From positions 1 to 64,000 of the IMG/VR virus record IMGVR_UViG_3300044695_003856: 64,000 nucleotides of DNA, one strand, 5' to 3'. Both the position numbers and the translations under genes were made by a program. The notes under the pieces were generated by a model that did not search any database, was not told the DNA's origin, and saw only the letters and a list, made by a program, of their open reading frames with translations. Source of the DNA: a virus. This document shows positions 1,036 through 62,921 of the stretch, in pieces. How positions within the stretch are numbered: position 1 is the stretch's first letter; the number at the start of each line of letters is the position of its first letter.

Positions 1036-1596
1036 ATGCACAAATTCAAAACCACCAACATCAAAGGGAAGGACTATGTTGAAGTCAACCAACGCCTCCT
1101 GTTCTTCCGCAACGAGCCAACCTATGCGGGTTGGTCCATTGAATCCGATCTCGTTGACCTGCAACCCGACCGCTGCTGCATCAAGGCAATGATTCGGGAT
1201 GCCGATGGCCGCATCCGTGCTACGGGCCATGCTCATGAGGACCGCACCAGTTCCATGATTAACAAGACCTCCTATGTAGAAAACTGCGAAACATCTGCCT
1301 TTGGCCGTGCCTTGGCCGCCCTTGGTATCGGGATTGAAACGAGCATCGCAAGTGCTAACGAGGTGTCCATGGCCATCGCCAAGCAGGAGAACCTCAACGA
1401 CCTCAACGACAAACTCGGCCTCGTTCCCGCCTACGACGACCTCACCGCCGCAACCCTGAAAGCCGACTTCTTGAAACTGGTGCAGAAGTTACCCGCTGAC
1501 CAGCAGGAACGCTTTATGAAGGACCTGGACCAAATGACCCCCGCCCGATTTGAGAAAGGCATTCAATTCATTCAAAATCAACTCTCTAAAAAATAA
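1036..1596 (+). CDS. ERF/Rad52-like single-strand annealing recombinase
   Basis: A 186-residue protein. The stretches KDYVEVNQRLLFF, GWSIESDLVDL, IKAMIRDADGRIRATGHA and especially YVENCETSAFGRALAALGIG are the pattern of phage single-strand annealing proteins of the ERF/Rad52-like group. They coat ssDNA and anneal complementary strands during recombination and repair. The C-terminal third is helical and variable. Neighbours are typical early phage genes, and the coiled-coil gene at 63082 is of a kind often found beside such recombinases. The family is clear; the exact subfamily is not. Confidence 0.8.
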   Translation: MHKFKTTNIKGKDYVEVNQRLLFFRNEPTYAGWSIESDLVDLQPDRCCIKAMIRDADGRIRATGHAHEDRTSSMINKTSYVENCETSAFGRALAALGIGIETSIASANEVSMAIAKQENLNDLNDKLGLVPAYDDLTAATLKADFLKLVQKLPADQQERFMKDLDQMTPARFEKGIQFIQNQLSKK

Positions 1597-60244: not shown

Positions 60245-60267
60245 ACGAACTGCCGATAGTGAGAAGA

Positions 60268-60292
60268 GGGGAGCTTAGGCTCCCCTTTTTTT
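60268..60292 (+). terminator. Intrinsic terminator after the SSB-tailed gene
   Basis: GGGGAGC pairs with GCTCCCC around TTAG and is followed by seven T. Confidence 0.9.
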
Positions 60293-61686: not shown

Positions 61687-61920
61687 ATGAAGAAAGTTCA
61701 TTTCATCCCATGTGACGACATTCAGACCAACCATACGATCCACGTATGCACCTGCCAACCGGTGGTCAAGAAGGAACAATCCGGCGAGGATGGGCCCTTC
61801 ATTGGCATCTACCACCGCTACACGGACAACAAGGGCTACATCAAGGAGGTCTGTCGGGATCTGGGCGTATCAACGCCCAAGTTCAGTTACATACAGATTT
61901 CACAAGATGCTGTCACTTAA
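61687..61920 (+). CDS. Small protein of unknown function
   Basis: A 77-residue protein (KKVHFIPCDDIQTNHTIHVC, IGIYHRYTDNKGYIKEVCRD) with three cysteines. It ends just ahead of the large RNA candidate. No family recognised. Confidence 0.6.
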   Translation: MKKVHFIPCDDIQTNHTIHVCTCQPVVKKEQSGEDGPFIGIYHRYTDNKGYIKEVCRDLGVSTPKFSYIQISQDAVT

Positions 61921-61981
61921 TCAGAAACATATCTGAATAAAAATAATCACCAAGTAGTCTTTTTATTACGAGAACCGACTA

Positions 61982-61989
61982 TAACTTTG
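61982..61989 (+). promoter_or_regulatory. Bacteroidota-type promoter (-7 box) for the large RNA
   Basis: TAACTTTG, within ACTATAACTTTGGG. There is a T-rich stretch (TCTTTTTA) about 20 bases upstream. No start codon followed by a long frame appears downstream until 62592, so a non-coding transcript is expected. Confidence 0.65.
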
Positions 61990-61994
61990 GGCTG

Positions 61995-62521
61995 TTAATA
62001 GCGCATGAGTTAGAGTTCAAGTCATAAGAGGATTACCTGAGTTCAGACCGTCTCAGCACAAAACTGGTCCAAACTTGCATTTCTAGTCGATGCTTGGTTC
62101 GAGCAAAGTAAAGTCCCACAGCAAGCGCCTTCGAAACTCCTTTATTGGTTTCGTGATCCGCCTTCGGAGATACGCAGCTGACGGCATTCAAAATTAAAGT
62201 AAACCAATCAGGGGGCGGATCTTTCTGACCAAAGATTTGCCAAACTACCTTTGGCGAATCGCCTGGTCTTCTTTTCCGCCACCAAGCCTCCGGAGGGGTG
62301 GTTAAACCACAGCCCACCAACCGGTGGGCCAATGAGACCCAATGGGAACCAACCCGGAGGATGGCGAGGTAGTCATGCCTTCGGATTGGTAGTAGTGAAC
62401 CGTGGCGGATTGACGGGATGTGAGACATCTTTTTGAATTGTTTTTTCACCACCAAATGCTTGCGCCTTGGGGGAAGTATTTGAGTAGTGAGAGCCCCGGA
62501 CCACCTTGGGGGTGGCCGGGG
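61995..62521 (+). ncRNA. Large structured RNA candidate (about 440-530 nt)
   Basis: Perfect stems are seen at: 62037-62041/62052-62056 (CTGAG/CTCAG); 62132-62137/62148-62153 (CGAAAC/GTTTCG); 62155-62162/62214-62221 (GATCCGCC/GGCGGATC, closing a 51-base domain); 62227-62231/62264-62268 around 62234-62244/62250-62260 (11 bp, one G-U); 62276-62282/62402-62408 (CCGCCAC/GTGGCGG), enclosing 62287-62293/62354-62360, which in turn encloses hairpins at 62298-62310 and 62312-62329; and 62494-62499/62516-62521 with inner CCACC/GGTGG. GATGT/ACATC plus five T (62417-62434) may be an end. Domains, junctions and length recall GOLLD/ROOL-type ornate phage RNAs, but no class can be named. Confidence 0.68.
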
Positions 62522-62543
62522 GGACAGAACTATCGGGATGTAG

Positions 62544-62591
62544 TTGGGATTAGCGATCGGGGTTGTATATTTGGCGTGTAATAAACACGCC
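62544..62591 (+). promoter_or_regulatory. Promoter with palindrome touching the start codon
   Basis: TTG at 62544-62546, a 19-base spacer, and TATATTTG at 62566-62573. Directly after it, GGCGTGT (62573-62579) and ACACGCC (62585-62591) form a perfect inverted repeat that ends one base before the ATG at 62592. It may be an operator or, less likely, an RNA hairpin at the 5' end. Confidence 0.6.
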
Positions 62592-62921
62592 ATGAATAGC
62601 CCAGACATTGAACACAACGTTGGTTTCACCAACCCCGGAGCTACTCCGATGTACGAAATGCTTCTCTTTGTTTACCACTGGGGAGAGGATTTCAAGACCA
62701 AGAAGATGAAGACAGCCTTTGTCGAGAAGGCTAAAGCCCTTCTCGAGAGAGAGTACAAGATGATCGGGAAGGCTTACCAGGATGGTAAGAAATCCTCGAC
62801 TCCTGTGGAGGCTAAGAGCTACTACGCAGAAGCCTACCCGATGAACGGCAGAGCCGTTCACTTTGAAGATGAAGAAGGGTATAGGGATGCTAAGTTCATT
62901 GGTCTAAATCCGGAGGAATAG
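62592..62921 (+). CDS. Small protein of unknown function behind the large RNA
   Basis: A 109-residue protein starting MNSPDIEHNVGFTNPGATPM, with helical middle (KKMKTAFVEKAKALLEREYK) and an acidic end. The ATG at 62592 is preferred over the upstream start at 62544 because that would lie inside the promoter. It is the first gene downstream of the RNA and could be linked with it. No family recognised. Confidence 0.62.
   Translation: MNSPDIEHNVGFTNPGATPMYEMLLFVYHWGEDFKTKKMKTAFVEKAKALLEREYKMIGKAYQDGKKSSTPVEAKSYYAEAYPMNGRAVHFEDEEGYRDAKFIGLNPEE

Follow-up and report, generated by a model that had tools for sequence, protein, structure and literature searches.

The gap between two small plus-strand genes of a Bacteroidota-type phage is filled by a candidate RNA that we read as an independently transcribed, non-coding structured RNA probably acting in trans, a reading to which we assign a probability of just under one half from sequence analysis. 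Very probably the stretch is no mere spacer but a real structured element that has been conserved. It folds strongly, and five related viruses keep it whole or as its core, which makes a real functional RNA probable. The window analyzed comprises bases 1-64,000 of a 71,351-base IMG/VR phage record, whose terminase is a distant relative (22-26%) of those of crAss-like phages. The locus includes the following features:

61687-61920, plus strand: upstream gene, product of unassigned function (77 aa), a conserved neighbour of the RNA
61982-61989, plus strand: TAACTTTG, a TAnnTTTG (Bacteroidota -7) box read in the sequence, predicted promoter of the RNA
61996-62524, plus strand: predicted structured RNA, long form, both ends predicted, from fold z and conservation to about 62510 followed by poorly conserved spacer
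62069-62222, plus strand: core (about 150 bases) common to long and short forms, from identity to the short form and covariance model R1
62223-62524, plus strand: long-form extension, absent from four short-form phages
62544-62573, plus strand: TTG-N19-TATATTTG, promoter-like sequence of the 62592 gene, from sequence reading
62573-62591, no strand assigned: perfect palindrome GGCGTGT-AATAA-ACACGCC (7+5+7) directly before the 62592 ATG, identical in the full-length relative
62592-62921, plus strand: downstream gene, product of unassigned function (109 aa), adjoining the RNA in every record

A neighbour-gene scan recovered one full-length relative, L002 of IMGVR_UViG_3300021091_000364, which is 81% identical including the TAACTTTG box. 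Four more phages, found by a terminase scan and then a whole-record DNA search, carry only the core (window 62069-62222) at 81-84% identity. Since the core occurs in these four without the extension, the RNA exists as a long and a short form; the short-form phages lack the 3' extension of about 300 bases, and their 62592-type gene starts about 26 bases after the core. Covariance model R1 of the core recovers it in six records, and a core model search of 41 related phage records found nothing beyond the four short-form phages. No RNA was seen in the parts examined of contigs sharing the 60693 gene. Distant blastn searches of phage and plasmid collections gave no match or chance matches, searches of viral and genome contigs for exact core patterns returned, by eye, the known relative and chance matches alone, and sequence patterns in prokaryote genomes gave nothing beyond chance. 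All finds fall in six records from a single phage clade, each of which keeps the gene order 60693 - 61160/61413 (minus strand) - 61687 - RNA - 62592. In the relative's genome, the gap upstream of the 60693 homologue (L047:3160-3330, minus strand) holds two identical terminator hairpins (GGGGAGCTTAGGCTCCCC plus a T run) flanking nested inverted repeats with a z of -8.6; the window has one copy (compare 60264-60292).

Fold strength was assessed against shuffled sequences and against 72 control windows of 250 bases from the same phage, which had a mean z of -0.73 and a minimum of -3.22. The long form reached z -3.59, with none of 100 dinucleotide shuffles folding as well, and its relative in L002 reached z -8.44. 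Windows starting at 62096, 62196 and 62275 (z -3.55, -3.61 and -4.72) beat all 72 controls, whereas nested folding of the first 250 bases (61996-62245) was no better than chance (z +0.14). These scores show that the excess structure is real and lies in the 3' two thirds, so that the multi-branched fold beyond chance proposed in the earlier note holds for 62096-62524 and not for the first 250 bases. The helices number more than ten, in agreement with the count of at least ten stems given there. The short form taken as a whole did not fold better than shuffles (z -0.93).

The core and the hairpins at its 5' side contain the following elements:

62039-62076, plus strand: hairpin P2, with an invariant outer stem AGUU/AACU and a conserved loop GUCU...CAAAA
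62077-62093, plus strand: hairpin P3, GCAU/AUGC in the window and L002, GCAC/GUGC in the short form
62099-62131, plus strand: conserved, mostly unpaired stretch GAGCAAAGUAAAGUCCCACAGCAAGCGCCUUCG, near-invariant between window and L002 and strongly conserved in the short form
62132-62153, plus strand: hairpin CGRAACY/GGUUUCG, 100% of cells paired, five distinct sequences
62146-62210, plus strand: alternative or pseudoknot pairing AUUGGUUU (62146-62153) / AAACCAAU (62203-62210), sequence invariant in all
62155-62222, plus strand: domain closed by GAUCCGCC (62155-62162) / GGCGGAUC (62215-62222), 100% of cells paired

P2 covaries across three lineages. Its inner stem reads ACC/GGU in the window, ACU/AGU in L002 and CUGU/ACAG in the short form and is complementary in all three, in a structural register that was hand-aligned across a one-base register difference. 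P3 has a double change, one pair being altered on both sides between the forms. In the hairpin at 62132-62153 two pairs vary on one side only, and the closing helix of the domain (GAUCCGCC/GGCGGAUY) is paired in all five distinct sequences, one pair varying from G-C to G-U. This is the long-range stem noticed earlier in the DNA as GATCCGCC/GGCGGATC, which can indeed be read there and encloses 52 bases. The core helices are too conserved for covariation to show. Over the whole unit, the window and L002 differ by 9 compensatory changes against a shuffle mean of 6.1, which is not significant (23 of 200 shuffles were as high), and a column-shuffle z of -9.75 was set aside as evidence because two coding controls also scored strongly (-6.55 and -3.78). 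The AUUGGUUU/AAACCAAU helix crosses the GAUCCGCC/GGCGGAUC domain and is the minimum-energy helix of the short form. GGUUU can pair with CGRAAC or with the invariant AAACCAAU, the two being mutually exclusive, and the pairing may be a pseudoknot, a switch or chance.

Inverted repeats of a DNA-level element, such as a replication origin or a packaging or recombination site, could resemble RNA helices of this kind. The minus strand of the unit folds nearly as well (z -3.24), the window and L002 together favour neither strand clearly, and the core is conserved at the nucleotide level whatever the codon frame. We nevertheless hold a DNA element to be improbable: one-sided changes keep G-U pairs on the plus strand that would be A-C mismatches on the other, P2 keeps its hairpin and conserved loop while the stem changes, and a promoter-like box marks the start of the conserved block.

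The structure of the extension is derived from two sequences, the window and L002, and its helices are well defined in their consensus:

62227-62268, plus strand: GACCA (62227-62231) / UGGUC (62264-62268) around an 11-bp hairpin (62234-62244/62250-62260)
62281-62370, plus strand: branched domain of 62281-62291/62359-62370, 62295-62303/62347-62355 and 62312-62318/62323-62329, consensus pair probabilities 0.86-1.00
62372-62414, plus strand: irregular helix 62372-62387/62397-62414, from the two-sequence consensus
62416-62445, plus strand: small hairpin GGAUGU/ACAUCU followed by broken U-runs, a weak terminator-like site, from sequence and consensus
62446-62490, plus strand: long hairpin UCACCACCAAAUGCUU/AAGUAUUUGAGUAGUGA, from the two-sequence consensus
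62495-62520, plus strand: G+C-rich hairpin CCCGGACCACCU/GGGUGGCCGGG, the last conserved helix, from consensus and identity profile

The first of these is the 11-bp stem with one G-U pair inside GACCA/TGGTC of the earlier note, and its pairs are identical in L002. Two further stems named there, CCGCCAC (62276-62282) / GTGGCGG (62402-62408) and CCTCCGG (62287-62293) / CCGGAGG (62354-62360), are present in the window but are not kept intact in L002, where the former loses three of its seven pairs and the latter some pairs too; the two-sequence consensus favours 62281-62291/62359-62370 over the CCGCCAC/GTGGCGG partners. The branched domain shows one C-G to U-A compensatory change, in 62312-62318/62323-62329. 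The hairpin at 62416-62445 is A+T-richer yet paired in L002, and the terminator scan makes no call there.

The earlier description of this stretch as free of a credible gene is borne out on both strands. A 199-aa minus-strand ORF was rejected as a gene, being broken by several stops in L002. On the plus strand, the four short-form records have an open frame of 97 codons across the core (L089:1682-1906, minus strand, and also G022, G025 and G039), reading MVYKNEKHGYRF...RLRNPFIGFVIRLRRYVVDGIQFKILNQ. The core could be a small protein gene, its frame running to 75-97 codons in the short form (…KSLSKRLRNPFIGFVIRLRRYVVDGIQ…) and surviving in the long form decayed or as a remnant of 35 aa from an ATG at 62090; all the sequences can be read as KSxSKRLRNxFIGFVIRLRRYxxDGIQ. 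Because this product looks protein-like, we ran a codon test in which the share of unchanged residues that keep the same codon was compared between the core and five neighbouring genes (Fisher). Between the window and L002 the same codon was kept for 26 of 27 unchanged residues in the core versus 243 of 404 in the genes (p=5e-5), between the window and G026 for 19/23 versus 130/286 (p=8e-4), and between L002 and G026 for 22/25 versus 128/293 (p=1e-5), the genes lying at about 45-60%. Core changes between the window and G026 were even across codon positions (4, 6 and 5) whereas the genes had a third-position excess, a contrast that alone is not significant (p=0.2). Moreover, the long form and the short form differ by a shift in this frame, and in the window a stop interrupts it. 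Together, the same-codon excess and the broken frame indicate that the constraint acts on nucleotides, and conserved protein-coding substitution patterns are absent from the core. Neither Pfam nor PHROG matches the frame, phage records gave no relative, and a small protein would leave the extension unexplained. We therefore give the protein reading little credence and reject the plus-strand ORF, which lacks codon constraint, as the sole explanation of the core; an additional small peptide might conceivably be made from it.

The limits of the conserved block show in the identity profile. Identity between the window and L002 is 0.27 over 61940-61969, jumps to 0.73 and more where the TAnnTTTG box begins, and then ranges over 0.65-1.00 as far as about 62510. 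It then drops to 0.45 in the spacer at 62540-62569 and reaches 0.93 over the palindrome and the 62592 start codon. The box itself, TAACTTTG, can be read directly before the gene-free stretch as described earlier. The RNA's own promoter, as claimed there, is a predicted one, from a sequence match that is kept in L002; a clear -33 TTG is absent. In the short-form records TAGATTTG stands upstream of the core. TAnnTTTG boxes also occur at window positions 620, 7532, 49345, 62566 and 63008 and at record base 67622, 18-67 bases before several start codons, a placement fitting a Bacteroidota host. As such, TAnnTTTG is not enriched in the phage, so that each single box is weak evidence. The promoter-like sequence of the 62592 gene is degenerate (TATCTTCG) in L002, and in the short form TATATTTG lies just before the ATG. 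The palindrome that follows has no other exact copy within the window and overlaps the likely transcription start of the 62592 gene, and it is possibly a repressor operator. The terminator scan found no U-tract terminator at the proposed 3' end (62524), although such terminators occur elsewhere in this phage, and read-through into the 62592 gene may therefore occur. Two transcription units, the RNA and the 62592 gene, each with a promoter-like sequence, would be the simplest reading.

The main rival is that the element is a cis-acting, riboswitch- or attenuator-like 5' leader of the 62592 gene, with read-through from 61982 and alternative folds setting expression. The RNA always lies directly upstream of this gene on the same strand (6/6 records), and outside the window's own record the gene turned up in five records, exactly those with the RNA. 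The short-form core ends about 26 bases from the start codon, its mutually exclusive pairings would suit a leader, and there is no strong terminator between RNA and gene. Against this, the gene has promoter-like sequence of its own in both forms, the spacer between RNA and that sequence is poorly conserved, 530 bases would be unusual for a 109-aa gene, and Rfam leaders and riboswitches give no match. Because these phages keep their whole gene order, the linkage of RNA and gene says little by itself. A leader is a serious possibility, though we consider it less likely than not. The promoter-like sequence of the downstream gene is our reason for preferring an independent RNA acting in trans. This reading is also consistent with the limits of the conserved block, which starts at the TAnnTTTG box and ends before poor spacer and the gene's own TTG-N19-TATATTTG, and with a core that is 81-84% kept in short-form phages versus 44-66% identity for the flanking proteins.

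The product of the 62592 gene has no match in Pfam or PHROG, and its structure model is poor (mean pLDDT 48.5). We observed that the 3' end of the gene (TTCATTGGTCTAAATCCGGAGGAATA; window 62890-62921, L089 about 1320-1350, minus strand) is nucleotide-identical between the window and the short-form phages, despite an identity of about 51% between the proteins; a CCGGAGG within it could pair with CCUCCGG of the RNA. Downstream (record bases 65919-69003, L046:5919-9003), genes for a DUF3799 PDDEXK nuclease, a Rad52-like protein and an ECF-type sigma factor are clustered, and this sigma factor might drive a phage-specific promoter class.

The always-kept core, the dispensable extension and the unpaired stretch at 62099-62131 suggest a target-contacting core on a scaffold. 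During infection the RNA would be made as a separate transcript from the box at 61982, and it would act in trans. Its common working unit would be the 5' part of about 190 bases, comprising P2, P3, the stretch at 62099-62131 and the GAUCCGCC/GGCGGAUC domain. The stretch is a proposed contact site, most likely for a host or phage target (RNA or protein), with the helices holding or protecting it, and the extension of about 300 bases of stable helices may be a lineage-specific scaffold.

Few large structured RNAs are known from phages, and what they do is little understood. Here, phages that are otherwise syntenic carry either the long form or a naturally shortened one, which separates the always-kept part from the dispensable part, and the short form (about 200 bases) offers a small version suited to structure and target-capture work. 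The all-Rfam scans (4227 families) yielded no match at the gathering level and none at E<=10 over 61900-62650, so membership in GOLLD, ROOL, ARRPOF or OLE by covariance model fell away, and for the short form they gave nothing or chance matches far below the cut-off. A direct search of the whole record with RF03087 (ROOL) gave no match, and the controls did not score either. ARAGORN found no tRNA in the window and, in the relatives, none close to the RNA, with a single odd call of low grade 3 kb downstream in L046.

ROOL is a phage-borne RNA of about 570-600 bases with many helices, suspected pseudoknots and a little-understood function, and it assembles into an RNA nanocage (PMC12286853). ROOL and GOLLD RNAs are often, though not as a strictly defining trait, found near phage tRNA genes, and in GOLLD, a large phage-borne RNA, a universally conserved part stands beside a variable one (PMC12286853). 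The resemblance to GOLLD, ROOL and ARRPOF remarked on at the outset holds in size and phage context and not in model matches, tRNA proximity or distribution. Like ROOL (RF03087), the window RNA has a phage origin, similar size, many helices and suspected pseudoknots; unlike it, it has no model match, no tRNA island nearby, an observed range of one phage clade and a short form. With GOLLD it shares the pairing of a kept and a variable part in a large phage RNA, but GOLLD has its conserved part on the 3' side, with many members longer than 800 bases, whereas here that part is 5' and the total is about 530. ARRPOF and OLE are likewise large structured bacterial RNAs, without an all-Rfam match here and not comparable in context. 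Cis-regulatory leaders and riboswitches of phage genes also have a conserved fold upstream of one gene and alternative pairings; here the downstream gene has its own promoter-like sequence, no Rfam leader matches, and the long form is far larger. The earlier suggestion of a new class holds to the extent that the RNA forms a new sequence family, in which an extension may or may not follow the core, and class status is conceivable. A new class of large phage RNA, with a universal 5' core and an optional folded 3' scaffold, acting in trans during infection, possibly with a switch or pseudoknot and possibly forming a ROOL- or GOLLD-like RNA-only assembly, is a tentative proposal with the odds against it. 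By model search, the predicted RNA is a new sequence family within the large structured phage RNAs, outside ROOL, GOLLD, OLE and ARRPOF.
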